The translations under genes and the position numbers were made by a program. DNA of 64,000 nt from Klenkia taihuensis (GTDB lineage Bacteria > Actinomycetota > Actinomycetes > Mycobacteriales > Geodermatophilaceae). This document shows, piece after piece, positions 118 through 15,137 of the stretch. Location of the stretch: contig NZ_FOMD01000004.1 of the NCBI RefSeq assembly GCF_900112525.1, forward strand, positions 558,001 to 622,000. The letters are read 5' to 3'. Numbering within the stretch: the stretch's first letter is position 1; the number at the start of each line of letters is the position of its first letter. The notes beneath the pieces were generated by a model. It worked only from the letters and a program-made list of their open reading frames with translations, was not told the origin of the DNA and ran no database searches.

Positions 118-1056
118 GTGACCGAACGCCTCATCACCCACCTGCGGCACATCGACCTGGCCGTGCCCGACCTCGCCAAGCAGCGGGAGTTCTTCACCGG
201 CACCTGGGGCCTGAAGGAGGAGACGACCGACAGCGGCCTGTCCTTCCTCGCGGCCGAGGGGAGCCCCGAGCAGTACGTCGTCCGGCTCCGCGAGGCCACC
301 GACAAGCGGATCGACCTGGTCTCCTTCGGCGCCGCGGACCGCGCCGACGTCGACACCCTGGCCGGCCGGATGGCGTCGGCCGGCGTCCAGCTCGTGCACG
401 AGCCCACCGACCTGCAGACCCCCGGCGGCGGCTACGGCTTCCGGTTCTTCGACAACGAGGGCCGCACGGTCGAGGTGTCCGCCGACGTCGCCGTGCGCGA
501 GCACCGCCGCATCGAGGAGGGCGAGTCGATCCCGGTGCGGCTGTCCCACGTCGTGCTGAACTCGGCCGAGCCCGAGAAGACCGTGGCCTTCTACGAGCAG
601 CACTTCGGCTTCGCGCTGTCGGACACCCTCATGCACCCGCGGATGGGCAACATGATGTGGTTCCTGCGCACCAACGCCTGGCACCACAGCATGGCCGTCG
701 CCCGCGGCCCGCACGCCTCGCTGCACCACGCCTCGTTCGAGCTGCGCGGCATCGACGAGTACATGCGCGGCACCGGCCGGGCGCTGCGCGCGGGCGTGGA
801 GAAGATCTGGGGCCCGGGGCGCCACATGGCCGGCAACAACACCTTCTCCTACTTCCTGGACCCGCACGGCAACACCGTGGAGTACACGACCGAGCTCGAC
901 CTGGTCGACGAGGACACCTGGCACCCCTCGCTCTACGACTTCACCCAGCCCGAGGTCAGCGACCAGTGGGGCACCGCGAACGCGATGAACGAGTTCGTCG
1001 CGCAGAAGTCGTTCAACGACCCCGACAAGGGTCTCTTCGTGGCACCCCCGGTCTGA
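118..1056 (+). CDS. Extradiol ring-cleavage dioxygenase (VOC fold, catechol 2,3-dioxygenase type)
   Basis: The protein has 312 residues and two vicinal-oxygen-chelate modules (about 5-125 and 140-265). The second carries the type I extradiol signature: candidate Fe(II) ligands His144 (RLSHVVL), His204 (SLHHASF) and Glu255 (GNTVEYTTE), with His189/190, His236 and Tyr245 at the spacing of the BphC active site. Length matches the family. It would open a catechol-type ring between a hydroxylated and an adjacent carbon. The GTG start sits 9 bases after GGAGAAG. The stop overlaps the next start (TGATG), so the FAH-family hydrolase is translationally coupled and probably acts on the same route. The exact substrate cannot be read from sequence. 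Confidence 0.88.
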   Translation: MTERLITHLRHIDLAVPDLAKQREFFTGTWGLKEETTDSGLSFLAAEGSPEQYVVRLREATDKRIDLVSFGAADRADVDTLAGRMASAGVQLVHEPTDLQTPGGGYGFRFFDNEGRTVEVSADVAVREHRRIEEGESIPVRLSHVVLNSAEPEKTVAFYEQHFGFALSDTLMHPRMGNMMWFLRTNAWHHSMAVARGPHASLHHASFELRGIDEYMRGTGRALRAGVEKIWGPGRHMAGNNTFSYFLDPHGNTVEYTTELDLVDEDTWHPSLYDFTQPEVSDQWGTANAMNEFVAQKSFNDPDKGLFVAPPV

Positions 1057-2009
1057 TGCGGTTCGCGACCTGGGAGCACCAGGGCGAGGTGTCCGCCGGT
1101 GTCGTCTCCGACGCCGGCGTGCACGGCATCCCCGGGACGACGGTGCTCGAGCTGGTGCGCTCGGGCCTGGCCACCGCGGTCGCCGCGGGGGAGCAGGCGC
1201 TGGAGGCACCGGCGGTGCCGCTGGCCGACGTCCGGCTGCTGCCGCCGCTGCAGCCGCCGACCGTGCGCGACTTCGTCACCTTCGAGGAGCACGTCGAGGG
1301 CGTGCGCAAGAGCATCGACGGCGCCGCCGGGGTGCCGGAGCGGTGGTACGCAGCACCGACCTTCTACTTCACCCACCCCTACGCCCTGGTCGGCGCGCAC
1401 GACGACGTCGCCGTCCCGCCGGGCTGCCGGCGGTTCGACTTCGAGCTCGAGGTGGCGGCGGTCGTCGCCGAGGACCTGACCTCGCCCAGCCCCGACCAGG
1501 CCGCGGTCTTCGGCTACACGGTGCTCAACGACTGGTCGGCGCGGGACCTGCAGGCCGCCGAGATGCAGGTCAGCCTCGGCCCGGCCAAGGGCAAGGACTC
1601 GGCCACGACGCTGGGCCCGTGGCTGGTCACCGCCGACGAGCTCGAGCCCTACCGCGACGCCGAGGGGTTCCTCGCGCTGGAGATGACGGTGTCGGTCAAC
1701 GGCACCCGCATCGGCCACGACCTGCTGTCCAACATGGGCTGGCCGTTCGAGGAGCTGGTGGCCTACGCCGGCCGCGGCACCCGGCTGCTGGCCGGCGACG
1801 TGCTGGGGTCGGGCACCTGCGGCAACGGTGGCTGCCTGGCCGAGCTGTGGGGCCGGGACGGGGCGTCCGCCCCGCCGCCGCTGCAGCCCGGCGACGTCGT
1901 GGAGATGACCGTCGAGGGCATCGGCACCATCCGCAACCGCGTCGTGGCCGGCGCCGAGCTGCCGCCGGTGGCCCCCGCGCGCACCCGCACCCGCGCCCGC
2001 ACCCGATGA
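1056..2009 (+). CDS. Fumarylacetoacetate hydrolase family protein
   Basis: A 317-residue FAH-fold protein. The metal-binding region FDFELEVA (Glu130, Glu132, with Asp128) and NDWSARDLQ (Asp159/Asp164) is intact, followed by GPAKGKD with a candidate catalytic lysine. Family members hydrolyse C-C bonds of diketo acids or decarboxylate/isomerise ring-fission products in homoprotocatechuate-type pathways. ATG overlaps the dioxygenase stop by one base, and the gene overlaps the SDR by 4 bases (ATGA). The C-terminus is a run of Arg-Thr pairs encoded by a simple cgcacc repeat, probably unstructured. The substrate is unknown, but the context supports ring-cleavage product hydrolysis. Confidence 0.88.
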   Translation: MRFATWEHQGEVSAGVVSDAGVHGIPGTTVLELVRSGLATAVAAGEQALEAPAVPLADVRLLPPLQPPTVRDFVTFEEHVEGVRKSIDGAAGVPERWYAAPTFYFTHPYALVGAHDDVAVPPGCRRFDFELEVAAVVAEDLTSPSPDQAAVFGYTVLNDWSARDLQAAEMQVSLGPAKGKDSATTLGPWLVTADELEPYRDAEGFLALEMTVSVNGTRIGHDLLSNMGWPFEELVAYAGRGTRLLAGDVLGSGTCGNGGCLAELWGRDGASAPPPLQPGDVVEMTVEGIGTIRNRVVAGAELPPVAPARTRTRARTR

Positions 2010-2752
2010 GCCCGGACCTGGCCGGCCGGGTCGTCGTCGTCACCGGCGGCGGCCGCGGCCAGGGCGCGGCGGAGGCCCGCCTGCTGTGCGCGCTCGGCGC
2101 GGAGGTCACCGCGGTCGACCTCGGGGACGGCCCCGACGAGGACCTCGGCGGGGCCGGCTACCGGCGGCTGGACGTCACCGACGCCGCGGGCTGGGCGGCC
2201 CTCGCGGCCGACCTCGGCGAGGTGCACGGCCTGGTCTGCAACGCCGGGGTCACCTGGCGGGCGCGGTTCACCGAGCTGGACCCGGCCGACCTGGCGCGGG
2301 TCATGGCGGTGAACGTGACCGGCACGCTGCTGGGCCTGCAGGCGCTCACCCCGCGGATGGGGCCCGGCGGGTCGGTGGTCGTCGTGGGCTCGGTGGCCGG
2401 GCTGACCGGGCACTTCCCGGCCGCCTACACGGCCAGCAAGTGGGCGCTGCGCGGGCTGGCCAAGACGGCCTGCCTGGAGCTGGGCCCGCGCGGCATCCGG
2501 GTCAACACCGTCCACCCCGGCTACGTCGAGACGCCGATGACCGCCTCGGCCGCACCGGCCTTCCGGGCGGCCAACGTCGCCGAGACCCCGCTGGGGCGCA
2601 CCGGCACCGTCGACGAGGTGGCCCCGCTGGTGGCCTTCCTGCTCGGCGACGGCGCCTCCTTCATCACCGGCGCGGAGATCCCCGTCGACGGGGGCCTCAC
2701 CGCCCACGGCGGCGTGAAGTCCATCAGCGACGCCGTCGCCGCACCCACCTGA
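2006..2752 (+). CDS. SDR family NAD(P)-dependent oxidoreductase
   Basis: A 248-residue classical short-chain dehydrogenase. The cofactor loop is TGGGRGQG (13-20), NAG starts at residue 79, and the catalytic residues are Ser129, Tyr141 and Lys145 (YTASK). The C-terminal part has the usual FITGAEIPVDGG motif. The start ATG overlaps the preceding stop (ATGA), so it belongs to the catabolic operon. It probably oxidises or reduces a hydroxy/keto intermediate of the aromatic route; the substrate is not predictable. Confidence 0.9.
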   Translation: MSPDLAGRVVVVTGGGRGQGAAEARLLCALGAEVTAVDLGDGPDEDLGGAGYRRLDVTDAAGWAALAADLGEVHGLVCNAGVTWRARFTELDPADLARVMAVNVTGTLLGLQALTPRMGPGGSVVVVGSVAGLTGHFPAAYTASKWALRGLAKTACLELGPRGIRVNTVHPGYVETPMTASAAPAFRAANVAETPLGRTGTVDEVAPLVAFLLGDGASFITGAEIPVDGGLTAHGGVKSISDAVAAPT

Positions 2753-2768
2753 GCAGAGAGGAACGCAC

Positions 2769-3938
2769 GTGTTCGAGTACTTCCCGGGCAACTACGTCTG
2801 GAACCTGGGCGTCGTCGCGACGCTGAACTCCGGCGGGCTGATCGACGAGGTCGACCGCGCCTGCCGGCCGATCAAGGACGCCGCGCAGCAGGGCGAGGAC
2901 GCCGGCACCCAGGACTTCCTGCGGGCCTGGACGGCGCTGACCGACCAGCTGGTCGAGCAGGCCGAGGCGGCCGAGAAGGCCGGGCACACCCGCACCGCCG
3001 GGCAGCTGTGGTTCCGCGCCACCAACTACCTGTGCCAGGCCGAGCGGATGCTGTCCCACACCAGCCCCGACCGGGTGCCCACCTACCGGCGGGTCACCGA
3101 CATCGCCGAGCGCGCCTTCGCCACCCACAGCCCGCGGGTCTCGCGGGTGGAGATCCCCTACGAGGGCACGACGCTGCCGGCCTACTTCAGCGCCGCGCCG
3201 GCCACCGACCAGGGGCCCGCACCGGTCGTCGTGCTGGTCAACGGGCTGGACTCCACCAAGGAGCACATGTACACGTCCAACCACTGGGAGGAGCTGGCCG
3301 CCCGCGGCATCTCCTGCCTGATGCTGGACCAGCCCGGCACCGGCGAGGCGCTGCGCCTGCAGGGCCTCACCGCGCGCATCGACACCGAGGTGTGGGCCGG
3401 CGCGGCGGTGGACTGGCTGGAGACCCGCGCGGACGTCGACACCGCGAGGATCGGCATCGTCGGCTGGTCACTGGGTGGCTACTTCTCGCCGCGCGCCGCG
3501 GCCTTCGAGAAGCGGTTCGCGCTCTGCGTGGCGTGGGGGGCCAACCACGACTGGGGCGCGGTGCAGCGCCGCCGGGCCCAGCGCGAGGGCGAGCGCCCCG
3601 TGCCGCACTACTGGTCGCACGTGCTGTGGGTGTGGGGCATCGAGGGCGACGAGCACCACCTCGACGCGTTCCTGGAGTTCGCCGACGGCGTCCACCTGGA
3701 CGGCGTCGTGGAGAAGATCACCGTGCCGTTCCTCGTCGCGCACGGGGAGCACGACCGGCAGATCCCGCTGGAGTACGCGCACCGCTCCTACGAGCAGGCC
3801 GTCCACTCCCCGAAGCGGGAGCTGCGGGTGTTCACCCCCGAGGAGGGCGCCACCGAGCACATCGGCCTGGACCACCTGCCGCACGTCAGCGTGTTCGTCG
3901 CCGACTGGGTCGCCGACACCTTCGCCGAGCTGGGCTGA
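2769..3938 (+). CDS. Alpha/beta hydrolase with helical N-terminal domain (FrsA / C-C hydrolase type)
   Basis: A 389-residue serine hydrolase. The first 120 residues form a helical N-terminal domain (VWNLGV, repeated Glu/Ala helices), as in FrsA-like and 2,6-dihydroxypseudooxynicotine-hydrolase-like enzymes. The catalytic core follows, with nucleophile elbow GWSLGG (Ser234), acid Asp329 (HGEHDRQIP) and a candidate His364. GTG is the start (GAGCAGAGAGGAACGC upstream). It lies 16 bases after the SDR gene and closes the cassette. In this setting it may cleave a C-C bond of the ring-fission product; this is inference from family and neighbours. Confidence 0.85.
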   Translation: MFEYFPGNYVWNLGVVATLNSGGLIDEVDRACRPIKDAAQQGEDAGTQDFLRAWTALTDQLVEQAEAAEKAGHTRTAGQLWFRATNYLCQAERMLSHTSPDRVPTYRRVTDIAERAFATHSPRVSRVEIPYEGTTLPAYFSAAPATDQGPAPVVVLVNGLDSTKEHMYTSNHWEELAARGISCLMLDQPGTGEALRLQGLTARIDTEVWAGAAVDWLETRADVDTARIGIVGWSLGGYFSPRAAAFEKRFALCVAWGANHDWGAVQRRRAQREGERPVPHYWSHVLWVWGIEGDEHHLDAFLEFADGVHLDGVVEKITVPFLVAHGEHDRQIPLEYAHRSYEQAVHSPKRELRVFTPEEGATEHIGLDHLPHVSVFVADWVADTFAELG

Positions 3939-3978
3939 CCCGCACCGGGCCGCCCGCCCCGCCTCAGCGGGTGCGGGT
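3938..3978. terminator. Possible hairpin between convergent genes
   Basis: A perfect 9-base inverted repeat, ACCCGCACC at 3938-3946 and GGTGCGGGT at 3970-3978, spans the gap between two convergent genes. The loop is 23 bases and there is no T-tract, so a terminator role is only possible. Confidence 0.35.
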
Positions 3979-4932
3979 GGTCCGGTCGGCGAGGTCGATG
4001 GCGGTGGACAGGCCCAGCGCCATGGCCCGGCCGCTGGTCGACCCCGTGGCCAGCAGCGTGGCCAGCGCGGCGTCGAGGTCGCCCTGCCCGATCAGCGCCC
4101 GGACGACGGCGGCGAACTCGCCGCTGACCCGGCCGGCCGCGGCGTGCTTGAGCAGCGCACGGGACAGCTCGGTGGTGCGCCCGGCGGCCAGCGCGTGCAC
4201 GCCGGCGCCGAAGCGCTCGGCGGCCGGGTGCCCCATGAGCACCAGTCCGGCGACCGTGCCGGCGAGCACGTCGTCCCCGGCGGGGGTCAGGCCCGGGCCG
4301 AGCCCGACCAGCCGGGTGGCGGTGCGCAGCGCGGCGTCGAGGTCGGCACGCCGGACGGCGCCGCGCAGCGCCGCCAGCGGGCCGCTGGGCCCACCGGGCA
4401 GGCCGGGCAGGGTGAAGGCCGAGTGCGGTCCGTCGCCGTAGAGCGCGGTGCGCAGCGTGCGGACGCCCTCGGGCAGCAGCACCGGGCGCAGGCCGGGCAG
4501 CCTGGGCCGGGGGTCCCACCAGGCGGCGGCGGACACGGTGAGGTCGCCGACGACGACGCGGCCGCCGCCGACGGAGGCCCGGGCGCCGGCCGGGGCACCC
4601 ACCAGCGGGCGGCCGTTGGACGGGCGGGAGAGCACCAGGCCCAGCGGCAGCCGGGCGGCGTCGGCGGTGAGCACGCCGACCACGTCGGTGCCCTGCGGGG
4701 TGGCCACGGCCAGGTAGACCGCGGCGGGCACCGACAGCAGCACGGTGGCCGGGCGGACCGGTCCGCGCAGCAGTTCGGCGACGCCGGTGCTGGCCGCCGC
4801 GGGGACGGCGGGCCCGGCGGTCAGCGGGCGGGCGGGGTCCCGGGGGAGCGGGATGGTCGGCACACCGGCGCGGGCGGCCCGGCCGCGCTCGGCCGTGGCG
4901 GTGGTGGTGTGCTGCGGTCCTGCGGTGCGCAT
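3964..4932 (-). CDS. DUF2877 family protein (AllH-like, ureide/oxamate metabolism)
   Basis: A 322-residue protein with the hallmark GLGPGLTPAGDDVLAG-type motif of DUF2877. This family includes AllH, a subunit linked to oxamate carbamoyltransferase in anaerobic allantoin use. I start it at the ATG at 4932 because GGGAGGA lies just upstream; another ATG lies 48 bases further out. It is transcribed away from a PucR-type regulator, the usual regulator of purine/ureide genes, which supports a nitrogen-catabolic role. The other expected allantoin genes are not next to it, so its substrate is open. Confidence 0.75.
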   Translation of the reverse strand: MRTAGPQHTTTATAERGRAARAGVPTIPLPRDPARPLTAGPAVPAAASTGVAELLRGPVRPATVLLSVPAAVYLAVATPQGTDVVGVLTADAARLPLGLVLSRPSNGRPLVGAPAGARASVGGGRVVVGDLTVSAAAWWDPRPRLPGLRPVLLPEGVRTLRTALYGDGPHSAFTLPGLPGGPSGPLAALRGAVRRADLDAALRTATRLVGLGPGLTPAGDDVLAGTVAGLVLMGHPAAERFGAGVHALAAGRTTELSRALLKHAAAGRVSGEFAAVVRALIGQGDLDAALATLLATGSTSGRAMALGLSTAIDLADRTTRTR

Positions 4933-5174
4933 GGGTCCTCCCGTGGGTACCGGCGGTCGCCCCCGCGCCGCCGTCCGCACCGTGACCGGGCGGAGGAGCC
5001 GCGGTGGGGCGGCTTACCATCCACACGAGCCGATCGGGCGTATGTCGAACCTATGCGGCGCGTCCACACCCGTCGTATGGCGTAACTAGCCAAGAATGCG
5101 TGGCCGAGTCCAGGCAGCTCTGACAGGATGAGCGGGCAGGACCGGGGGAGCACGGGACGTGGGGGGACAACACG
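4933..5174. promoter_or_regulatory. Divergent control region between DUF2877 gene and pucR-like gene
   Basis: This 242-base region lies between two divergent starts and is less GC-rich than the flanking genes around 5035-5110. It contains the similar 9-mers cgtatgtcg (5039-5047), cctatgcgg (5051-5059) and cgtatggcg (5074-5082). These could be repeated operator half-sites for the PucR protein. No promoter can be assigned with certainty. Confidence 0.35.
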
Positions 5175-7121
5175 GTGACCGATCGTGAGTACGCGGTGAC
5201 ATCGCCTTCGGAGGGTGGCCGAACGGCTCCGCTGCGTCAGGTCTCGGGCCGGTCCGAGCCGGCGCTGTCCCGGGTGGCGCCGACCGAGCGCACCGCCCTC
5301 GAGGACAGCATGGGCCTGTCGGTCACCCAGCTGCTGGCGCTCACCGACGGCACCCTGGTCGCGGGTTCCGCGGGGGCCGGCCGGGTGGTCCGCCAGGTGG
5401 TCGTCGACGACCCCGCCGACCCGCTCGCCGGTGCCGGCCCCGACGTCCTGGTGGTGCTCGGCGCCCGGCTGCCCCCGGCCGACCCGGCGCAGTGCCGGGC
5501 CCTCATCGAGCGGCTCACCGCGCTCGGCACCGCGGCGCTGGCCTACCGCGACGCCGAGGGCCCGCCCGCCGTCCCCGCCGAGGTGCGCTACGAGGCCGAC
5601 CGCCGCGGGTTCCCGGTGGTGGCGCTGCCGCGCACCTCCCGGCTGGACCTGGTCGTCGCCGAGGTGTTCGGCGCCATCGTGGCCAAGCAGTCGCAGGCGC
5701 TGAGCCTGGCCGACCGGATGCACAACCAGTTCATCGACGTCGCGCTGACCGGCGGCGGGCTGGCCGAGGTCACCGCGCAGGCGGCCACGTTCCTCGACGG
5801 CGCCGCGGTGCTGGGCCTGGGCCCCGACCGCGAGATCGCCACCAGCGCCGGGCCGTCGGACGACGTCGCCGAGGTGCGCGACTGGCTGTGGCTGCTCGAC
5901 GCCGCCGCCGACGACGCCTACTCCGACCTGCCCAGCGCCCGCCGGCTCTCGGAGAACCGCGCCGACCAGGCCATCGTCACCCCGGCCGACGTGCTCGCCG
6001 ACGCCGACCTCTCCCCGGCCGACGGCATCCTGCTGGTCCCCGGCCACCACGAGCTGCCCGGCGGGGTCGGCGAGTACGCCGTCGCGCCGATCATGGCCGG
6101 CGACCAGCGGCACGGCTGGCTGGTCGCGGTGAACCGGCACGGGCCGATGCTGGTCGGCGCCGGGGCGGTGCTCGAGCGCGGCGCGGTCATCGCGGCGCTG
6201 TCGGAGATCCGCCACCAGGCCGTGCACTCGGTGGAGCTGCGCTTCCAGGGCGACATGGTGCGCCGGCTGGTCAGCGGCACCGTCGGGCACACCGAGCGGG
6301 CGCTGGCCTACACCCGCTCCTTCGGCTGGCGGCTCGACGGGCCGGTCGCGGTGCTGGTCACCGCCACCGAGACCGTCGCCGACGCCAGCGCCGACCCCAC
6401 GCGGGCGCTGGACGTGCTGGACCGGCTGGCCGACGGCTGGCGGGCCGCGATCGACGGCGAGGTCGCCGGCGCCGCGGTGGCGGGCCTGGCCACCGAGATC
6501 GTCACGGTGCTGCCGCTGGACGGCCGCACGCCCGAGGAGCTGACCTCCCTGGTCGCGGCGGTCACCGGCCGGGTCAACGCCCGGCTGCGCCGGGTGGGCC
6601 GGGTGCTGGCCACCGGCATCGGCCGGCCGGCGCGGGAGCTCTCCGGCCTGGGCGAGGCGCACCAGCAGGCGCAGCGGGCGCTGCAGGTGGGCCAGGAGAT
6701 CCACGGCGAGGCCACGGTCACCCACTTCGACCAGCTCGGGGTGTTCCGGCTGCTGTCGCTGATCCCGGACTCGACGGAGCTGCGGTCCTACGTCGACGAG
6801 GTGCTCGGCCCGCTGGCCGATGCCGCCGACCCCGACTCCGCCGACCTGCGCGACACCCTGCGGGTGCTGCTGGAGACCAACCTCAACGTCGCGGAGTCCG
6901 CCCGCCGGCTGCACTTCCACTACAACACGATGCGCTACCGGATCGGCAAGCTGGAGCGGATGCTGGGGCCCTTCACCTCCGACCCCACGCTGCGGCTGAA
7001 CCTCCTGCTGGCCCTGCACGCGGCACGCATGCGCGGCCTGGACCAGGTGCACCGGCCGCCGGTGGAGGCCACCGGCCTGCCCTACCTCGACGACGGCCTG
7101 GAGGCCCTCGCCCAGGCCTGA
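5175..7121 (+). CDS. PucR family transcriptional regulator
   Basis: A 648-residue regulator. An N-terminal PucR sensory domain (about 47-185) is followed by a central GGDEF-like/CdaR-type domain (about 340-500) and a C-terminal helix-turn-helix (LLETNLNVAESARRLHFHYN, with NTMRYRIGKLERMLG). Family members sense purine or ureide signals and activate catabolic operons. GTG 5175 is the chosen start; an internal ATG at 5310 (Met46) begins exactly at the conserved domain and may be the true start, since residues 1-45 look unstructured. It is divergent from the DUF2877 gene and probably regulates it and itself. Confidence 0.9.
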   Translation: MTDREYAVTSPSEGGRTAPLRQVSGRSEPALSRVAPTERTALEDSMGLSVTQLLALTDGTLVAGSAGAGRVVRQVVVDDPADPLAGAGPDVLVVLGARLPPADPAQCRALIERLTALGTAALAYRDAEGPPAVPAEVRYEADRRGFPVVALPRTSRLDLVVAEVFGAIVAKQSQALSLADRMHNQFIDVALTGGGLAEVTAQAATFLDGAAVLGLGPDREIATSAGPSDDVAEVRDWLWLLDAAADDAYSDLPSARRLSENRADQAIVTPADVLADADLSPADGILLVPGHHELPGGVGEYAVAPIMAGDQRHGWLVAVNRHGPMLVGAGAVLERGAVIAALSEIRHQAVHSVELRFQGDMVRRLVSGTVGHTERALAYTRSFGWRLDGPVAVLVTATETVADASADPTRALDVLDRLADGWRAAIDGEVAGAAVAGLATEIVTVLPLDGRTPEELTSLVAAVTGRVNARLRRVGRVLATGIGRPARELSGLGEAHQQAQRALQVGQEIHGEATVTHFDQLGVFRLLSLIPDSTELRSYVDEVLGPLADAADPDSADLRDTLRVLLETNLNVAESARRLHFHYNTMRYRIGKLERMLGPFTSDPTLRLNLLLALHAARMRGLDQVHRPPVEATGLPYLDDGLEALAQA

Positions 7122-7137
7122 CCCCGAGGACGACGCA

Positions 7138-7165
7138 GGCCCGCCACCCGGGTGGGTGGCGGGCC
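7138..7165. terminator. Strong hairpin between convergent genes
   Basis: A perfect 12-bp stem, GGCCCGCCACCC (7138-7149) and GGGTGGCGGGCC (7154-7165), with a 4-base loop. It lies 17 bases after the pucR-like stop and just beyond the cbtA stop, so it can serve both strands. There is no clear T-tract, as is common in high-GC genomes. Confidence 0.65.
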
Positions 7166-7178
7166 CCGTCGAGGCGGC

Positions 7179-7928
7179 TCAGCTGCGGCGGGCGAGGCGG
7201 TCGACCAGGTAGCCGGCGGTGAGGCCGAGCGTGGTCCACATGACCGCGAGCTGGCCGAGGGACGCCAGCCGGAAGTCCCACACGACCGCGGCGGGCACGT
7301 CGGCGGCGATGGTGTCGGGGTTGTCCGGCACCAGCAGCACCGTGGCCGCGACCAGCGCGACGGCGAGCAGGACCGCCGCCGTCGCCACGGCCGACGGGTG
7401 CAGACCGCGGGCGCGCAGCGTGCCGACCAGCGCCGACACCAGCAGCGCGGTGACCACGCCGGCGCCCAGTACCGCGACGTAGATCGCCGTCCGGGTGCCG
7501 ACGGTGTCGGGGTCGCCGACGGCCGGCGGGTTGGCCGGCATCTTCAGCGCGGGCAGCAGCGCGAACACGCCGAACCCGACCGCGGTGAGGACGGCGACCC
7601 GGCCGACGTCGGTGCGCCCGGGCAGCCGGTGCCGCACCCCGGCGTACACCGCGGCGACGACGACGGAGAACACCACCGCGGCGACCACGGTGCCGAGGAA
7701 CCCGCCGACCAGCTGCGTGCCGCGGCCGACCAGCTCCTCGCCGTGCTCGTGGCCGCCGGCGCGGGACTCCTCCAGCGCCAGCGCCGGCGCGATGGCCCGC
7801 TCGGTCACCAGCAGCGCCCACGCACCCGACGCCGCCCCGGCCGCGACGCCGGCGAGGGCGAAGCGGCCCAGCAGCGGCGCGAAGCGGGGGGCGGTCCCCT
7901 GGCGGGGGCTGTCGAGGGCGGCCGCCAT
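7179..7928 (-). CDS. cbtA: CbtA family cobalt transporter
   Basis: A 249-residue membrane protein with about five to six hydrophobic segments. The N-terminal half has the CbtA pattern, including a His/Glu loop after TM1 (GGHEHGEEL) likely to meet metal, and the mid-protein LPALKMPANPPAVGDP motif typical of CbtA. It is thought to move Co2+ into the cell for cobalamin synthesis. Its ATG overlaps the cbtB stop (ATGA), and both lie behind a cobalamin riboswitch, which supports the assignment. Confidence 0.88.
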   Translation of the reverse strand: MAAALDSPRQGTAPRFAPLLGRFALAGVAAGAASGAWALLVTERAIAPALALEESRAGGHEHGEELVGRGTQLVGGFLGTVVAAVVFSVVVAAVYAGVRHRLPGRTDVGRVAVLTAVGFGVFALLPALKMPANPPAVGDPDTVGTRTAIYVAVLGAGVVTALLVSALVGTLRARGLHPSAVATAAVLLAVALVAATVLLVPDNPDTIAADVPAAVVWDFRLASLGQLAVMWTTLGLTAGYLVDRLARRS

Positions 7929-8128
7929 CAGTGGCAGGGCATGCCCAGCGAGTGCCGGGCGTCGTGGAAGAACTCGTGCGCGAAGTCGCCGGCCGAGGCG
8001 AGCACGGCGCCGTTGTCCTGGGCGACCAGGTACAGGGCGAACAGCGCGAGCAGCGCCAGCGCCCAGGCGTAGGCCGGCACGGCCATGCGCGGGACGGCGG
8101 TGCGGGTGGTCTGCTGTGCAGAGGTCAT
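7928..8128 (-). CDS. cbtB: CbtB family cobalt transporter subunit
   Basis: A 66-residue protein with one transmembrane helix (about 19-38) and a histidine-rich C-terminus, HEFFHDARHSLGMPCH, the expected CbtB metal-binding tail. ATG 8128 is preceded by AGGAAGG. It is the first gene of the cbtB-cbtA operon, directly below the cobalamin riboswitch. Confidence 0.9.
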   Translation of the reverse strand: MTSAQQTTRTAVPRMAVPAYAWALALLALFALYLVAQDNGAVLASAGDFAHEFFHDARHSLGMPCH

Positions 8129-8159
8129 CGGGGAACCTTCCTGTCCATCACTCGTGGGT

Positions 8160-8300
8160 GCGCCGCGGCCGGTGTCCGGCTGCCGGGCGCGTGCGCCCGG
8201 GTGACGGTGGCGAGGACCGCGCCGGACTCCCACCGGCTTCCCTGCACCGCAGCGGTGCGGACGCTACGGCCGGGTTCCCCGGTCCACCAACGTCGAAGGT
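8160..8300 (-). promoter_or_regulatory. Cobalamin riboswitch upstream of cbtB
   Basis: Read on the minus strand, 8200-8243 gives GGGAAGCCGGTGGGAGTCC, then GGCGCGGTCCTCGCCACCGT and CACCC. This matches the conserved cobalamin-aptamer core (GGGAA..GGTG..A.TCC....C.G.CC.GCCAC.GT). CAGCCGGACACC at about 8171-8182 matches the B12-box end (AGCCAGGAGACC). The element ends about 30-40 bases before the cbtB start. Cobalamin binding is expected to lower cbtBA expression. Outer helix boundaries are approximate. Confidence 0.85.
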
Positions 8301-8319
8301 GCGCAGCTGCGCAGGTGGA

Positions 8320-9027
8320 TCAGGCGGGCAGGCCGACCAGCACGCAGTCCGCGCAGGGCAGCGCCCCGGGCAGCCGCTGCAGCAGGCAGCAGGACCGCCG
8401 GGCGAACCCGCCGTCGGGCCGCCACCCGCCGGTGCCGGCCAGCGGCCCGGCGGCCAGCAGCGCGTCGAGCACCGCCCGGGTCCGCGCGGCCAGCCCCGGC
8501 CGGGCACCGGCCACCACGACGGCGGTGCCGTGCAGCGCGGAGACGACGTTGCCGGTGAGCACCCGCGGCGACACCGACCGGGCCGCGACGGCGGCGGTCC
8601 ACGGGTCGACCAGCGGGGTCAGCCAGTGCGCGGCCAGCCCGGCCGCGACGTCGTCGGGCGTGCGGACGGCGACCGCGCGCACCCCGGCCCACGCCATCGG
8701 CACCGGGTTCGACCCCACCGGCTGCAGCACCACCGAGGCGGGCACCGGCAGCACGCCGGTGGCCAGCGCGGCGCCGAGGGCGGGGGAGAGGACCCGGGCC
8801 ACCACGCCCAGGTGCACCAGCGAGTGCACCTCCCGGGCCGCGGCCGCCGATCCGAGCACCGCCGACACCGCGGCCGCCCGGGCGCGCAGCAGGGTGTCGC
8901 CGTCGGCGAGGTCCACCGCCCCGGGACCGGCGTCGTCGTCCACCGCGCAGAACGGGCCGAGCTCCGCGGCGGCGCGGAGGGCGGCGTCGGCGGGGGGCAC
9001 GACGCGAGCCTGCCACCCGACCGTCAC
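8320..9027 (-). CDS. FhuF-like (2Fe-2S)-binding protein, probable ferric-siderophore reductase
   Basis: A 235-residue protein ending in RRSCCLLQRLPGALPCADCV. The C-C-x10-C-x2-C pattern is the [2Fe-2S] site of FhuF-type ferric iron reductases; the rest is Ala/Val-rich and poorly conserved, as usual in this family. It may reduce iron released from siderophores in the cytoplasm. The GTG start at 9027 is only 23 bases from the divergent amidohydrolase start. The riboswitch lies just downstream, so this gene is not under it. Confidence 0.75.
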   Translation of the reverse strand: MTVGWQARVVPPADAALRAAAELGPFCAVDDDAGPGAVDLADGDTLLRARAAAVSAVLGSAAAAREVHSLVHLGVVARVLSPALGAALATGVLPVPASVVLQPVGSNPVPMAWAGVRAVAVRTPDDVAAGLAAHWLTPLVDPWTAAVAARSVSPRVLTGNVVSALHGTAVVVAGARPGLAARTRAVLDALLAAGPLAGTGGWRPDGGFARRSCCLLQRLPGALPCADCVLVGLPA

Positions 9028-9050: not shown

Positions 9051-10256
9051 ATGAGCGACCTGCTGGTGACCGGTGCCCGCCTGCGCGACGGCCGGGTGGT
9101 CGACGTCCACGTCGCCGGCGGCCGCGTCGTGGCGATGCCCGAGGCGGGCACCGGGCCTCGGCCGGACGGCGTCCCCGTGGTGGACGCCGACGGCGGGCTG
9201 GTCACCGAGCCGTTCGTCGACGGCCACCTGCACCTGGACAAGGTGCGCACCCTGCCGCTGGCCGGCGAGGCCGCGCTGGCCGCCTACACCGCCGACGGCA
9301 TGGCCGAGTCCGCGGCGAGCATCGACCTGGCCAGCGCGGTCAAGGCGCACTGGTCGGTGGACCTGCTGCTGCCCAACGTGCGCGAGGTGCTGGCGCTGGG
9401 GGTCGAGCACGGCGTGCTGCACGTGCAGGCCTTCGTCGACGTCGACTCCGCGGCCGGGCTGGTGGGCATGGAGGCGGTGCTGGCCGCTCGCGAGGAGTTC
9501 GCCGGCACCGTCGACGTCTCCGTGGTCGCCTTCCCGCAGGACGGCGTGCTGCGCGACCCCGGCACCGCCGAGCTGGTGGAGGCGGCACTCGACCTGGGGG
9601 CCGACGTGGTCGGCGGCATCCCGTGGATCGAGGACGGCGAGGCCGACCAGCGGGCGCACGTGCAGTGGGCGTGCGCGCTGGCCGCCCGCCGCGGGCTGCG
9701 GGTGGCGATGCTGACCGACGACGCCCCCGACCCCGCCTACCGCACCACCGGGATGCTGGCCGAGGCGATGGTCGAGCACGGCCTGGTCGGCCGGGGCGTC
9801 GCCTGCCACGCCCGCGCGCTCGGCGCCTACGGCGAGGACGACCTGGCCACCGTGGTCGGGCAGGCCCGGGCCGCCGGGCTGCGGTTCGTCAGCGACCCGC
9901 ACACCGGAGGGCGGGCGCTGCCGGTGCGCCGGCTGGTCGCCGAGGGCCTGCCGGTGGGGCTGGGCCAGGACGACGTGGAGGACGCCTACTACCCCTTCGG
10001 CCGGCACTCCCTGCTCGAGGTGGCGTTCCTCGCCGCGCACCTGCTGGAGATGCGCTCGGCGGCGGACCTCGAGACCCTCGTCGACCTCATCAGCACCTCG
10101 GCCGCCCGGGTGCTGGGCCTGGCCGACCACGGGCTGCGCGTGGGCGGGCCGGGTGACCTGCTGGTGCACGACGCCGTCCGCACCGTGGACCTGCTGGCCC
10201 GGCACGCGGCCCCGCGCGCCGTGGTGCGGTCCGGCCGGGTGGTCGCTCAGCGCTGA
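9051..10256 (+). CDS. Cytosine-deaminase-like amidohydrolase
   Basis: A 401-residue metal-dependent hydrolase. The N-terminal metal motif is GHLHLDK (His59, His61, with Asp63 and Lys64), as in cytosine deaminase; a later His lies in GVACHARAL and an Asp in GLGQDDVEDAYYPFG, a motif close to the CodA metal Asp. The segment where CodA has HxDE reads MLTDDAPDP, so the His and catalytic Glu are not conserved and the substrate may differ. The stop overlaps the remains of an opposing DUF998 gene. A broken, diverged second copy lies at 12955-13178. Confidence 0.78.
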   Translation: MSDLLVTGARLRDGRVVDVHVAGGRVVAMPEAGTGPRPDGVPVVDADGGLVTEPFVDGHLHLDKVRTLPLAGEAALAAYTADGMAESAASIDLASAVKAHWSVDLLLPNVREVLALGVEHGVLHVQAFVDVDSAAGLVGMEAVLAAREEFAGTVDVSVVAFPQDGVLRDPGTAELVEAALDLGADVVGGIPWIEDGEADQRAHVQWACALAARRGLRVAMLTDDAPDPAYRTTGMLAEAMVEHGLVGRGVACHARALGAYGEDDLATVVGQARAAGLRFVSDPHTGGRALPVRRLVAEGLPVGLGQDDVEDAYYPFGRHSLLEVAFLAAHLLEMRSAADLETLVDLISTSAARVLGLADHGLRVGGPGDLLVHDAVRTVDLLARHAAPRAVVRSGRVVAQR

Positions 10257-10261
10257 CGCGG
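10155..10261. repeat. Left copy of a 107-bp direct repeat flanking the island
   Basis: These 107 bases (the last 34 codons of the amidohydrolase plus the end of the opposing gene) align without gaps to 13077-13183; I count 5 mismatches. Weaker similarity continues to about 10340 and 13282. The pair brackets the low-GC island. Confidence 0.85.
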
Positions 10262-10340
10262 GGTCCTCCAGGCGGCTTCCTCGTCGAAGGGCTCGTCGTC
10301 GTCCTCGTCCACCCGCTGCTTCTTGGTGTCCGCCTTCAAG
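10247..10340 (-). pseudogene. Remnant of a duplicated DUF998 gene (C-terminal end only)
   Basis: On the minus strand this stretch encodes about 30 residues ending [18 protein letters not shown] and a stop. They match the C-terminus of the intact DUF998 gene at 13169-14011 ([15 protein letters not shown], then KTPRQR), with small indels. Similarity ends near 10340, so only the tail of a second copy remains. Its stop overlaps the amidohydrolase stop in the same way as in the intact pair. Confidence 0.8.
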
Positions 10341-10754
10341 GTGGGCGTTGTCAACGGCCCTGCGCAGTGCGGGCAGCACATTGACCTTGCTCTGCAGCCG
10401 GCCGAGTCGGGTGCGCAGATGGCTGATGGCCATTTGCTCAAAGGTGTGGTGACGCAGGGGGGAAAGGCGCAGGGAAAACCGCCGTGCTTCGAGAGCTGGT
10501 CCTTGATGATGCCGTCGGCGGTAAACCGGGCGGTCGCCCGACTAGGAAGGGCGGTTTGGGCCGCCTCGTCGTGTGTCTCGACACAAGTCACCCCGGCATC
10601 GGTCGACGACGCACCATGAGGGACACGGCCAGCACGAGGTCTAATCGAACCGCCCGCCAAGCCGGCAGCTGAGCGGTATGAGTCTGCAGCTTGTGACATG
10701 CTGAACCGACTCGCACAGAATCTAGCTATCTTGACAACAGGAACAGGTAACGGC
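10341..10754. other. Intergenic stretch at the left side of the island, no confident gene
   Basis: This region holds no gene I can support. GC falls along it toward the island gene. On the minus strand, about 10330-10450 reads as HHTFEQMAISHLRTRLGRL and then QSKVNVLPALRRAVDNAH, which looks protein-like but has no start and no recognised family; it may be a fragment of a lost gene. The last 60 bases contain TTGACA at about 10732 and a weak AGGAACAGG leader to the ATPase gene. Confidence 0.4.
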
Positions 10755-12842
10755 ATGCGATTCAACAGCATCTCTATCTCGAACCTCCGCGCCATTGAGC
10801 GGTTTGAAGTTGACGACCTGAAAGATTTTATTGTCATTGCAGGCCAAAACGGTTCAGGTAAATCTTCCGTATTTGACGGACTGAGACTGTTGAAGTCAGT
10901 TTACGGAGGCTATCAGGCTGACGAATACATGCAGTGGTTTGGCGAATTTGCAATTAATCTCCAAGACAAGTCCGCTCTGCGGCGGTTGTTCCGAGACTCG
11001 TCTCGCGAGATCAAGATCGCAGCCGAGGTGTCGTTCACAGAAGCAGAGCGCGCGTTCGTGCTGGACAATCTCGATAATTTGACGGATCCGATCGCATGGC
11101 AGATGGTGACCGGTCAGCGATCCGACCACTGGTCGTTCAGCAGAATGGCCATTGCATTGCAGTTGCAGCAGTATGAAGAACAAGTCAAGGCGGCGTCCGC
11201 CTCCCTGAAGGAGGCGGTGCGCAGCCAATTTACCTCCCGCGACCAGTCGCTCTCGCTTACTATTCTGCCGTCGGGAGAGATGTACCTGAACAATTCTAAG
11301 CCTGTCGAGGTCGCCTTTCAAAGTTATCAACCGGACCACTTGGGCGTAATCGAATATCACAGCGCGTCACGCGCTTACACGCGCCAAGATGTCGGCGGCA
11401 TCGACTTGAATGTGCGCAACTTTCAGGACCAGCGCCGACAGCAGGCGCTGTACAACTGGCAAGCTAAATACCAGAACGTTAAGACCGAATTGGCGTCGAG
11501 CTACCTGCGTCAGCTTATTTCGAGGCAGGCGGGAACCGGGGGTTCGGAAGACGATCTGAACGCTACGCTGGCTGAACTATTCAAAACGTTCTTCCCAGAC
11601 AAATCGTACGGGGGAGTTCGACCGCTAGAAAATGGCGGTCTCGAATTCCCGGTGAAAGTTGGCGAGAGTGCTCAGCACGATATCGACGATCTGAGCTCGG
11701 GCGAGAAGGAAATTCTATATGGGTACTTGCGCCTGCGGAACTCAACCCCCGCCAACAGTGTAATTCTGCTTGACGAACCCGAGCTGCACCTTAATCCAAG
11801 CCTGATGCAGGGGTATGCCGACTTCTATCATCGGCACCTGGGTCTAGCGAGGGGGAACCAGCTGTGGCTTGTGACGCACTCGGACGCGCTTCTGCGACAG
11901 GCCGTCGGAAATAGTAATTATCGCGTTTATCACATGGTGTCCGCATCCTCGGCTGGGCCCGCCGTGAATCAGGCGGCCGAGGTCCTCTTGGACGACGAGT
12001 TGGATCGCGCTGCGATTGACTTGGTCGGTGACCTTGCTAGTTACAGGCCGCAGGCGAAGATTGTCATCCTCGAGGGGGCGGAGGATGACGGTTTTGACGT
12101 TGGTGTCGTTCGCCGCCTCTTCCCCGATGCTGCTCGTCGACTGAATCTTGTAAGTGGCGGATCCAAGCGTCGAGTGCGCGACCTACACGAAATATTGGTG
12201 AAATCGTCGGAGCTAAACGGGGCTCACAACAAGTTTTATGCCATCTGCGACCGGGATTCGGACGTAAGGTTGACCGCCGAGATTGAGAATCGAGTTTTCA
12301 CTTGGGATCGCTACCATATTGAGAACTATTTGCTCGATTCCGAGCTCATCCTCTCGGTCTCGACAAGTCTTAGTTCATCGGCACCGTTCGCGACGGTGGA
12401 AGAGGTGGATGCTGCCCTGGTGAAGGCCGCGCGGGAGGTGCTGGGAGGATTGGTAGTCCAAGTTGTGCAGCGCGGAATCAATTCTGCCCTTATTAAGACC
12501 GTGTCCATCGGCATAGATCCGGCATCTCGCACCCCCGCGGCCGATTTCTTGAACTCGGTTGCCTCGTCCACGAACAAGTTCAGGGCGGCGGCGGACGGGC
12601 TGACGTACGAGGAGGTGAACCGTCGCGTGACGGATGCGCAGGCAAAATTCGCGGACGCGCTGTCGGATGCGAGTTGGCGTACGGAATTCCCGGGTCGCGA
12701 CGTGCTGAAAAGATTCGTCGGTGCTTCCCTAGTGGGTGTCAATTACGTTGCATTTCGAAACCTGCTGCTTGACAAGATGGCTGAGCAGCAGATCCAACCA
12801 GTTGGGATGAAGGCCGTCATTGAAAGGGTTCTACATGAGTAA
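10755..12842 (+). CDS. AAA ATPase fused to DUF4435/TOPRIM-like domain (candidate phage-defence protein, PARIS/OLD-like)
   Basis: A 695-residue protein read from ATG 10755 (MRFNSISISNLRAI); an upstream in-frame ATG at 10698 is less likely, because SMC/OLD-type ATPases begin near this strand. Walker A is GQNGSGKSS (30-38), the ABC-type signature LSSGEKE (313-319), Walker B VILLDEPELHL (336-346) and the switch His375 (THSD). The C-terminal third has ILEG (Glu440), CDRDSD (Asp499, Asp501, Asp503) and YHIENYLL (520-527), the acidic pattern of DUF4435/TOPRIM-like domains. ATPase plus DUF4435 are the two parts of the PARIS system (AriA, AriB), which also occurs fused; OLD nucleases are the other close model. 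GC is about 47% in a 60-base sample (10861-10920) against about 77% at 10141-10200, so the gene is foreign. Function is inferred. Confidence 0.8.
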   Translation: MRFNSISISNLRAIERFEVDDLKDFIVIAGQNGSGKSSVFDGLRLLKSVYGGYQADEYMQWFGEFAINLQDKSALRRLFRDSSREIKIAAEVSFTEAERAFVLDNLDNLTDPIAWQMVTGQRSDHWSFSRMAIALQLQQYEEQVKAASASLKEAVRSQFTSRDQSLSLTILPSGEMYLNNSKPVEVAFQSYQPDHLGVIEYHSASRAYTRQDVGGIDLNVRNFQDQRRQQALYNWQAKYQNVKTELASSYLRQLISRQAGTGGSEDDLNATLAELFKTFFPDKSYGGVRPLENGGLEFPVKVGESAQHDIDDLSSGEKEILYGYLRLRNSTPANSVILLDEPELHLNPSLMQGYADFYHRHLGLARGNQLWLVTHSDALLRQAVGNSNYRVYHMVSASSAGPAVNQAAEVLLDDELDRAAIDLVGDLASYRPQAKIVILEGAEDDGFDVGVVRRLFPDAARRLNLVSGGSKRRVRDLHEILVKSSELNGAHNKFYAICDRDSDVRLTAEIENRVFTWDRYHIENYLLDSELILSVSTSLSSSAPFATVEEVDAALVKAAREVLGGLVVQVVQRGINSALIKTVSIGIDPASRTPAADFLNSVASSTNKFRAAADGLTYEEVNRRVTDAQAKFADALSDASWRTEFPGRDVLKRFVGASLVGVNYVAFRNLLLDKMAEQQIQPVGMKAVIERVLHE

Positions 12843-12855
12843 TCGTCTTGCGTAA
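12835..12855 (+). other. Six-codon frame overlapping the ATPase stop
   Basis: ATG at 12835 overlaps the ATPase gene end by 8 bases and reads MSNRLA before TAA. Start/stop overlaps of this kind normally couple a second operon gene. Here the frame closes at once and high-GC host-like sequence soon follows, so it may be the stub of a lost partner gene, or chance. Confidence 0.25.
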
Positions 12856-12954
12856 GTCGTTCTGCATCGTTTGGGGGGTCTGATTCGTGTATACGAGGTG
12901 AGAGAAGGGTGCAACAGTTAGCGTGGATTGGCCTCCGTGCTCCGGTACTTCGCC

Positions 12955-13178
12955 AGGAGCGATCTGCTGGTGTCCAGCGCCGGCGCACGGGTCCGCGATG
13001 GCCGGGCGGCCGACGTTCACATCGCCGCGGGCCCGTTGGCCGCGCGGGCCCCGGTAGGGGACGGGGCCCGCGCGGCGACCTGCTGGTGCACGACGCCACC
13101 CGCACGGTCGACCTGCTGGCCCGGCACGCGGCCCCGCGCGCCGTGGTGCGGGCCGGCCGGGTGGTCGCTCAGCGCTGA
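12955..13178 (+). pseudogene. Internally deleted second copy of the cytosine-deaminase-like gene
   Basis: Positions 12955-13047 align to the start of the intact gene at 9051 (SDLLV, RVRDGRAADVH against LRDGRVVDVH), but the ATG has become AGG. Positions 13077-13178 align to its last 34 codons ([20 protein letters not shown]). About 1 kb between is missing and the two parts are in different frames. It cannot make the enzyme. The substitutions relative to 9051-10256 show that the two copies are diverged, not a fresh duplication. Confidence 0.85.
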
Positions 13179-13183
13179 CGCGG
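13077..13183. repeat. Right copy of the 107-bp direct repeat flanking the island
   Basis: Partner of the repeat at 10155-10261 (5 mismatches by eye, no gaps). It sits at the junction of the broken amidohydrolase copy and the intact DUF998 gene. Confidence 0.85.
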
Positions 13184-14011
13184 CGTCTTCGGCGTCTTCC
13201 AGGCGGCCTCCTCGTCGAAGGGCTCGTCGTCCTCCTCGTCGTCCGACCGGTCGGCCGCCTGCTTCTTCGCGTGCGCCTTCAGCGCCTCGTCCCGGGCTCG
13301 CGCGCGGTCAAACGCCTCGGCCTTCTCCAGCTCACGCCGCTGCCGCTTGGTGAGCGGGGCGTCCTCCCCCTCGGGGAGCACCACGCGCCAGTCGTCGCGT
13401 TGGCGCAGCAGCAGGACGGCGGCGACGGCGAGCCCGACCGGCAGCACGTAGGCCGCCACCCGCTCCATGCCGCCGTAGCCCAGCAGCGCGGTGACGCCGG
13501 TGCCGAAGAAGACCGTGCCGATGGTGCCGACCAGACCGAGCAGCGCCAGCACGGTGCCCACCGCCTCCGAGCGGGGTCGCACGCCGTAGGCCAGCGCGAT
13601 GAGGCCCAGCCCGCTGCCGAGCAGGTAGAGGACCGCGCCGACGGTGTGCGTGCCGCCGCCGGAGTCCGACGGGAACAGCCCGACCAGCAGCACCCCGGCC
13701 CCGGCGGCGGCCAGCAGCACCAGCGCCAGCCGGCCGCCGAGGCCCACGAGCGCCGGGTACAGCAGCACCGCGCCGGCCACGATGAGCACCGCCTGGGCGA
13801 CGAAGGAGGCGTTCATCAGCCCGGCGGCGGGGGAGAGGTCGGTGCCCAGGTCGCTGATCGCCTGCTCGACCCGGCTGTACCCGCCGAACCGGGCGATGGC
13901 GACGGCCTCGACGACGAAGAACTGCAGGGTGAGCAGCCACGCCAGCGACCCCGCCAGGTAGCGGGTGCGGCTCAGGGAGGTCGGGGCGGTGCTCGGCTCG
14001 CTGTCGGTCAC
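13169..14011 (-). CDS. DUF998 domain-containing membrane protein
   Basis: A 280-residue protein with about six transmembrane segments in the first 215 residues ([20 protein letters not shown], then ISDLGT, a typical DUF998 loop). A charged cytoplasmic tail follows ([15 protein letters not shown] to [14 protein letters not shown]). Function of the family is unknown. I choose GTG 14011, which leaves 37 bases to the divergent gntR start; an upstream ATG at 14086 would run into that gene. Its 3' end is partly duplicated at 10247-10340. Confidence 0.8.
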
Positions 14012-14048
14012 GGGGACCCATGGTCCCAGCACCGGCAGACTGGTGCCC

Positions 14049-14420
14049 GTGACCCTCGACGTGAGCGTGGACGCCGGCAACGGCACACCGCCCTACGAGC
14101 AGCTGCGCGCCCAGATCGCCGAGCGGGTGCACGACGGCCGGCTCACCGAGGGCGACCGGCTGCCGACCGTGCGCGGCCTGGCCGAGCAGCTCGGCGTCGC
14201 GCCCGGCACGGTCGCCCGGGCCTACGCCGAGCTGGAGGTCGACGAGCTGGTCGAGGGCCGCGGCCGGGCCGGCACCGTGGTCACCGGCGGCTCGGGCGAC
14301 CCGGCCCGGGCCCGGCTGCGGGGTGCGGCCAACCGGCTGGTCGCCGCGGCCCGTGCCGACGGGCTGGACGACGGCACGGTGCTCGCCGTGGTGCACGACG
14401 CGCTCACGGCCCGCCGGTGA
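14049..14420 (+). CDS. GntR family transcriptional regulator (YtrA type)
   Basis: A 123-residue protein made almost only of the GntR winged helix (about 12-75: [17 protein letters not shown], then [20 protein letters not shown] and GRGRAGTVV), with a short C-terminal helix pair as in the YtrA subfamily. GTG 14049 is chosen because residues upstream lack conservation and overlap the divergent gene. Its stop overlaps the ynfA-like start (GTGA). YtrA-type regulators often control adjacent transporter genes. Confidence 0.9.
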
Positions 14421-14749: not shown

Positions 14750-15137
14750 GCGCCCGCACCACCGCCCACTGCTCGGGCGTCAGGTAGGACGGGTTGCTCC
14801 CGGCCGGCATCCGCAGCACCTCGGCGGTGCGCACAACCGGGTCGGCGAGCAGCGCACCGCGCGGCACCGGGTCGGCCAGGAGCTCCCACCGCACCTGCAC
14901 CTCGAGGGCACCCGCGTCGACGCCGGTGACCGTGCCGACCGCGTGCACGCCCGGGTCGACCCGCCCGCTGCACCACAGCACGGCCGGGTCACCGGGTCCG
15001 ACGAGGTCCAGCCGGTAGCTGCGCCGCACGCAGCGGATCAGGTCGCCCGTCTGCCCGGGGCGCCAGCCGGGGAGCAGCTGGTCGGGCAGCACCGCCGACT
15101 TCAGCAGCCAGCAGCCGATCCCCGCCCGGGTCAGCAC
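14724..15137 (-). CDS. EVE-like (PUA-fold) domain protein
   Basis: A 137-residue protein with the pattern of EVE domains: GCWLLKS near the start, [31 protein letters not shown] and [13 protein letters not shown] domains bind modified bases in nucleic acids in some proteins; the role here is unknown. GTG 15137 overlaps the stop of the WcbI-like gene. The 3' end overlaps the ynfA-like gene, so either the overlap is real or the true end is disputed. Confidence 0.6.

Follow-up and report, generated by a model that had tools for sequence, protein, structure and literature searches.

The DNA analysed here, called the window at its full length, is a stretch of 64,000 nucleotides from Klenkia taihuensis (assembly GCF_900112525.1, contig NZ_FOMD01000004.1, positions 558,001 to 622,000) and lies on contig 3 of a 4.3-Mb genome that is 99.98% complete. 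It contains ariAB (10755..12842, plus strand), a gene that almost certainly encodes a fused, single-gene PARIS protein and that stands in DNA of foreign composition between two host genes. The reading frame is intact, with 695 residues and no internal stop, as had been reported in an earlier reading made from the letters alone (hereafter the sequence-only reading). An alternative in-frame ATG upstream at 10698 would lengthen the protein to 714 residues. The start was taken at the ATG at 10755 because the homologues at two outside loci, L011 and L012, align starting at the residue encoded there, and L012 has an ATG at this position.

The N-terminal half of the protein, about residues 1-400 (10755..11954; this and the other features of the protein are on the plus strand), is an AriA-like ATPase of the SMC/ABC type. 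Motif searches placed in it the Walker A motif GQNGSGKS (residues 30-37; 10842..10865), the ABC signature LSSGEK (residues 313-318, with LSSGE at 313-317; 11691..11708), the Walker B motif LLDEPE (residues 338-343; 11766..11783) and the switch Thr-His pair (residues 374-375 within THSD 374-377, the switch histidine being residue 375; 11874..11879). Conservation was assessed in an alignment (A2) of six proteins, the window protein included, and residues called invariant are identical in all six. These are G30, N32, G33, G35, K36 and S37 in Walker A, L313, S314, G316, E317 and K318 in the signature, D340 and E341 in Walker B, and both residues of the switch. A predicted helix at residues 413-430 (11991..12044) joins the ATPase and TOPRIM halves and contains most of a conserved GDLA.Y.P stretch, of which G425, D426, L427, A428, Y430 and P432 are invariant.

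The C-terminal half, residues 434-695 (12054..12839), is AriB-like and of the TOPRIM/DUF4435 type. The TOPRIM glutamate motif ILEG (residues 438-441; 12066..12077), located by motif search and in alignments, contains E440, which we infer to correspond to E26, the catalytic residue of AriB. A basic turn, GSKRR (residues 469-473; 12159..12173), carries the invariant K471 and aligns with GNK in a split AriB used for comparison. The TOPRIM DxD motif reads DRD (residues 499-501; 12249..12257), with D499 and D501 invariant, and is DKD in that split AriB, while the DUF4435 motif YHIENYLL (residues 520-527, with YHIEN at 520-524; 12312..12335) corresponds to YSIENDLF there; its Y520, H521, E523, N524, L526 and L527 are invariant. 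The catalytic motifs of both the ATPase and the TOPRIM domain are intact, and the TOPRIM motifs are common to the window protein and this split AriB. The motif list of the sequence-only reading (Walker A, LSSGE, Walker B, switch His, ILEG, DRD and YHIEN) was correct to within one residue.

The assignment to single-chain PARIS, which is held with high confidence, is carried mainly by profile matches. The PADLOC AriAB model (PDLC02981) aligns from end to end, residues 1-694 against model positions 1-692 of 694 (E 5.5e-181, 601.7 bits), and it also matches all six proteins of alignment A2. The separate PADLOC models for AriA and AriB match the respective halves (E 6.1e-18 and 7.3e-11). Among Pfam models, AAA_21 scores 57.1 bits (cut-off 27), AAA_15 48.4 bits (cut-off 32.1) and DUF4435 28.0 bits (cut-off 27, residues 437-539); these thresholds are the ones given for two-gene PARIS in the part of Rousset et al. 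that describes them (PMC9122126). Structure prediction gives the C-terminal third an AriB/OLD-like fold. An ATPase domain, a DUF4435 domain, a span over the whole model, an AriB-like effector fold and intact motifs are therefore all present, as fused PARIS demands. The best family match is AriAB and no housekeeping ATPase; a search of the protein against NCBIfam gave nothing above cut-off. The proposal that this is a merged PARIS-like ATPase-DUF4435 protein is thus borne out by the full-length AriAB match, the Pfam domains and the predicted fold together. The other half of that proposal, a new ATPase-TOPRIM defence protein, is superfluous because single-gene PARIS fusions have been published, according to the accounts cited here, and have a PADLOC model.

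Several results weigh against this assignment. The DUF4435 match passes its cut-off only narrowly. The fold match to AriB came from the second-look aligner alone and has a high root-mean-square deviation, Foldseek by itself returned nothing for the C-terminal half at E <= 0.001, and a profile of that half found no AriB chain among sequences of the Protein Data Bank (PDB). AriA chains were matched by profile (residues 300-379, E 1.7e-5). The Foldseek matches of the whole chain are topped by retron Eco8 and Gabija chains, with no AriA among the 50 whole-model matches listed; this absence says nothing either way. For the ATPase, the PADLOC PtuA model scores slightly higher than the AriA models (65.7 versus 63.8 bits).

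An ATPase and a TOPRIM domain on one chain is also the layout of OLD-type nucleases, and the protein might accordingly belong with class 1 OLD, GajA and the retron Eco8 effector as a single-chain nuclease that acts on phage DNA and not on tRNA. The leading Foldseek matches of the whole chain, the retron Eco8 OLD nuclease (4.0e-11), GajA (1.6e-9) and the OLD protein of T. scotoductus (1.7e-8), favour this view. The corresponding profiles fit only short stretches. The retron_eff_Eco8 model reaches 37.2 bits against a cut-off of 250 (best stretch residues 1-41), PADLOC Old 34.4 bits with a best stretch of residues 1-46 instead of the whole chain, and GajA 37.9 bits with a best stretch of residues 1-59, while a scan of five neighbouring frames showed no GajB helicase; the protein thus falls outside the definitions of the Eco8 effector, class 1 OLD and Gabija. 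It also falls outside Septu, as the best PtuA match is strongest at residues 306-380 and no HNH (PtuB) gene occurs among the same five frames. A DNA nuclease of this kind is considered unlikely.

The gene differs sharply in composition from its surroundings, as the sequence-only reading had noticed. Its guanine-plus-cytosine (GC) content is 55.1% in a window of 75.2%, and it belongs to an insert (10339-12950) of 56.2%. The 11 lowest-GC 1-kb windows of the 64 kb, taken in steps of 250, all start between 10001 and 12501. GC at third codon positions (GC3) is 0.647 in ariAB versus 0.967-0.983 in three host genes. Within its own genome the protein matches itself alone, and DUF4435 matches the ariAB gene alone (both at E <= 0.001). 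To the left lies an intact host amidohydrolase gene for 401 residues (9051..10256, plus strand; Pfam Amidohydro_3, 1.3e-27; 94% identical in congener G007). To the right a host DUF998 gene (13169..14086, minus strand; Pfam DUF998, 9.7e-17), for which the start codon is provisional, is convergent with it. The earlier description of foreign DNA between host genes therefore applies.

The sequence-only reading had overlooked that the insert lies between two direct, diverged copies of the ends of these flanking genes. The left copy (10152..10309, plus strand), detected by BLAST of the window against itself, comprises the 3' end of the amidohydrolase gene and the end of the convergent DUF998 gene. 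The corresponding right copy (13074..13240, plus strand) was identified by repeat search, BLAST and comparison with relatives. The copies are in direct orientation and 88.6% identical over 167 alignment columns (220 bits), and the next best pair in the window reached 100 bits in a control of 128 tiles of 265 bp placed every 500 bp. This control also revealed direct repeats, about 75% identical, inside 52501-53800 and 30001-30900 (100 and 69 bits, respectively). Between the insert and the right copy lies a remnant that resembles an amidohydrolase start (12951..13031, plus strand; the native start is at 9051), indicated by repeat families D3, D5 and D9. Compared with the amidohydrolase start in congener G006, it has 72.7% identity along 121 bp (E 7.4e-14); the stricter BLAST of the window against itself, at E <= 1e-3, did not recover it. 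The remnant is in a different frame from the amidohydrolase end in the right copy.

In six of eight congeners (G001, G003, G005, G006, G007 and G008) the site is empty, and the end of the amidohydrolase gene directly meets the end of the DUF998 gene. G004 has other genes at the site, and G002 has no close copy of the amidohydrolase (32% at best). Conservation of the gene at this site across relatives, which the sequence-only reading had named as a refuting outcome, is hence not seen, and neither of its other two refuting outcomes occurred. These data also bear on whether the protein might be a host ATPase with another role, in DNA repair or chromosome upkeep, similar to RecF, RecN or SMC. Models for SMC_N, RecF and RecN do match weakly at the Walker A region, but below their cut-offs. 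With no orthologue in congeners, an empty site in most of them and a foreign GC3, this explanation is close to refuted.

Both copies were compared with relatives by BLAST. For the left copy the nearest is G007 (92.7%), and the right copy is 80-85% identical to G001, G003, G006 and G007 (84.7% to G007), 73-76% identical to G005 and G008, and has only short matches of 63-133 bp in G004, G010 and G025. In gap-free 100-bp windows, both copies fall within the range of the remaining flanks and the right copy is not distinct: the right side is 86-89% identical to G001 and G007, and the left side from 10100 on is 86-100% identical to G007 and 72-90% to G001. The simplest route of entry would be one homologous crossover that brought in the defence gene beside the amidohydrolase/DUF998 stretch of a related organism. 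On this route the second amidohydrolase gene would afterwards have lost its middle part. A tandem duplication with a later insertion would give the same picture.

The insert begins with a foreign leader of 416 bp (10339..10754; 62.5% GC) without a recognisable gene. Its four open frames have no Pfam match at E <= 0.1, it has no plasmid match, and nine genomes of the genus yielded a 28-bp match in G008 and otherwise the leader itself. When 16 peptides from both flanks of the insert were compared with nine homologous loci (L067 contributed no DNA upstream of its gene), nothing convincing emerged (best E 0.032). A transposon or mobile remnant in the leader was rejected on these grounds. A two-gene system with an overlooked partner was likewise rejected, since the flank peptides are not common to the homologous loci. 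The idea of an integron cassette, prompted by a Kovacikia plasmid with an integron integrase about 4 kb from its homologue, was abandoned as well. Downstream of the stop codon the sequence folds less well than its shuffled versions (z 1.91; 197 of 200 shuffles at least as good) and gave nothing in Rfam at E <= 1, in a search that contained no attC model; poor folding and the lack of an Rfam match leave an attC-like site without support. A defence hotspot is similarly unsupported, as no known defence gene was seen by eye, without a model search, at the site in G004, G010 and G025. From their translations, we take the genes in G004 to be HATPase-like and PIG-L-like, and those in G010 and G025 to be of metabolic or transport type. 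Close to the insert site there is a second variable spot, where G005 and G008 carry about 1.3 kb of extra DNA (L053 6997-8306 and L056 5261-6569) near the equivalent of window position 14750.

Homologues are sparse. Matches at E <= 0.001 occur in 10 of 196 relatives' genomes, the own genome included, and the best other match is to a congener with 29% identity over part of the protein. At E <= 1e-20, AriAB is found in two of 396 genomes of the phylum, again counting its own, and the other match is partial. A species-genome collection, scanned with six exact peptides only, produced eight loci; in six of them the match spans almost all of the query at 38-54% identity, and in two it is short. The nearest relative fetched is 55% identical. 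Six plasmid records matched, two over the full length (39.6% in Lichenicola and 39.5% in Kovacikia), and 50,697 phage records contained no match at E <= 1e-5. In IMG/VR, the single protein query recovered one full-length locus, and the alignment recovered six loci, two of them full-length and one of these on the contig found with the single query, a contig equal in length to the Rhodovulum contig of L013. Among the six long-match loci, two from metagenome-assembled genomes (MAGs), L015:6001-8100 and L016:6001-8099, have broken reading frames.

These broken homologues raise the possibility that ariAB, though intact at present, is a passenger that is decaying or silent and has no function in its host. 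Its foreign composition with little amelioration and the shortened, frame-shifted amidohydrolase remnant adjoining the gene are compatible with this. So is the upstream region, where a single weak promoter-like site (GTGACA-17-CAGAAT, 10693-10721, 9/12) was found; the promoter scan gave two sites in total, little above shuffles (0.7, sd 1.1). However, no catalytic or ATPase motif is damaged and the 695 codons form one open frame; a silent passenger is judged improbable.

In a tree of eight intact proteins, the window protein forms a group at 100/100 with two actinobacterial ones, L011 and L012. The cyanobacterial and alphaproteobacterial plasmid copies group at 98/95, and the position of the long Cellulomonas branch is unsure. 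The clustering of plasmid copies from two phyla, together with the grouping of the window protein with actinobacterial ones, speaks for transfer of the gene between phyla. Neighbourhoods were inspected at six of the nine outside full-length loci (L011-L014 and the two plasmids, the other three being L015, L016 and L067), and mobile-element genes lie within about 4 kb in five of the six. An integrase is near the homologue in L012 and L013, and an integron-type and a tyrosine integrase are near it in the Kovacikia plasmid. In the Lichenicola plasmid, a tyrosine recombinase is directly upstream. Conjugation-type genes occur near L014, where TrbL is below its cut-off and DUF6112, which we take to be linked to conjugation, is above it. 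L011 has no mobile-element gene among the five neighbours scanned.

Three of these or related loci have further features. On the Lichenicola plasmid (NZ_CP053715.1, L063, 28.8 kb) the fused AriAB gene overlaps the tyrosine recombinase gene, and a separate pair of an ATP-binding protein and a DUF4435 protein lies with it within 7.6 kb (1034-8567). In L012:4134-10164, from a Mycobacterium MAG, the fused gene is situated between an RtcB RNA ligase gene and the integrase. The RtcB gene is host-like by composition; its product could heal cut tRNA, and its position may be due to chance. The congener G001 encodes a different ATPase-TOPRIM-like fusion of 606 residues at another place (L059:7808-9628, minus strand). 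A 359-residue piece of it is a partial match to AriAB (E 1.3e-22), and by eye it has DAD where the window protein has DRD.

The gene, its family, its motifs, its predicted fold, its foreign composition and the empty site in relatives are established directly here, and the protein is very probably a single-chain PARIS anti-phage protein acquired by horizontal transfer. In the published accounts of the two-gene system, AriA is an ABC ATPase sensor whose hexamer holds three AriB subunits, and an Ocr-type trigger releases AriB (PMC12409363; PMC11455837). As described there, released AriB pairs and cuts tRNA-Lys(UUU) between positions 40 and 41, and further targets include tRNA-Thr(UGU) and others (PMC12409363; PMC11455837). 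By analogy, the N-terminal ATPase of the fused protein would assemble and hold the C-terminal TOPRIM nuclease off. During infection the ATPase part would be bound by a protein of the phage, which in E. coli can be Ocr or another DNA mimic, and the resulting change in shape could allow two TOPRIM domains to pair. The paired domains would cut a host tRNA, translation would stop and the infection would be aborted. That the effector half is a tRNase is probable. Because sensor and effector are on one chain, their ratio is fixed at 1:1 and no free subunit can be released unless the chain is cut. For this reason activation in place, as in single-chain OLD-type nucleases, is preferred to release, and it has about an even chance of being correct.

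The host tRNAs include both tRNA-Lys(CUU) and tRNA-Lys(UUU). In a comparison made by two pattern matches and numbered by hand, tRNA-Lys(CUU) has U36 A A U C A41 and U16, as does the E. coli substrate, and tRNA-Lys(UUU) has U36 A A U C C41 and C16. The substitution U16C is described as impairing cleavage, and the tRNA of phage T5 has C16 (PMC12409363). If the specificity of AriB carries over, tRNA-Lys(CUU) would be the host target. This is a weak prediction because the effector half shares only 23% identity, over 97 columns, with the split AriB compared here, and the specificity was measured on a different AriB. The complete scheme, a 1:1 single-chain PARIS that fires without release through the pairing of neighbouring TOPRIM domains in the ATPase assembly and targets tRNA-Lys(CUU), is accordingly tentative and somewhat doubtful as a whole.

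PARIS is regarded as a back-up for restriction. The genome gave no match to HSDR_N (the type I R subunit) or to PglZ. It does encode two large type IIG-like restriction-methylation proteins of 946 and 1632 residues on contig 6 (L076:6927-17055), in a stretch with a GC content below that of the window. These enzymes are compatible with a back-up role and prove nothing.

Rousset et al. (2022) found ariAB in 5.2% of genomes, arranged either as a fusion or as a cassette of two genes (PMC9122126). Whether the fusion acts like two-gene PARIS has been described as unclear (PMC10568477), and no experimental study of fused PARIS was recognised among the titles and abstracts listed from the open-licence literature. 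In the current picture of PARIS the sensor releases its effector, which a fused protein cannot do by way of a free subunit. An intact, compact, one-gene PARIS from outside the enterobacteria is therefore a convenient test object. The insert is in addition an easily read example of a chromosomal defence system made of a single gene, and no integrase could be recognised within it.

Compared with known systems, the protein resembles the OLD single-chain nucleases (class 1 OLD, GajA and the retron Eco8 effector) in having an ABC ATPase followed by a TOPRIM domain on one chain and in its fold. It differs in that its sequence family and C-terminal domain are nearer to AriB, and no GajB, retron or PtuB partner is present among the five neighbouring frames scanned. 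Two-gene PARIS, as described for E. coli B185 (PMC12409363; PDB 8ux9 and 8v45-8v49), likewise combines an ATPase with a DUF4435/TOPRIM protein, and the effector half of the window protein shares the AriB-like predicted fold and motifs. In contrast to the six AriA and three AriB subunits and the release of AriB in those accounts (PMC12409363; PMC11455837), the window protein is one chain with inseparable parts at 1:1. The fused PARIS represented by PDLC02981 and described in the text cited (Rousset et al. 2022, PMC9122126) has the same domains in the same order and at the same length. No class-level difference from the published AriAB fusions was found. The single-gene type of PARIS has already been described, and the window protein adds a diverged member to it, in an actinobacterium-like genome of high GC and with a recombination-like footprint at its site.
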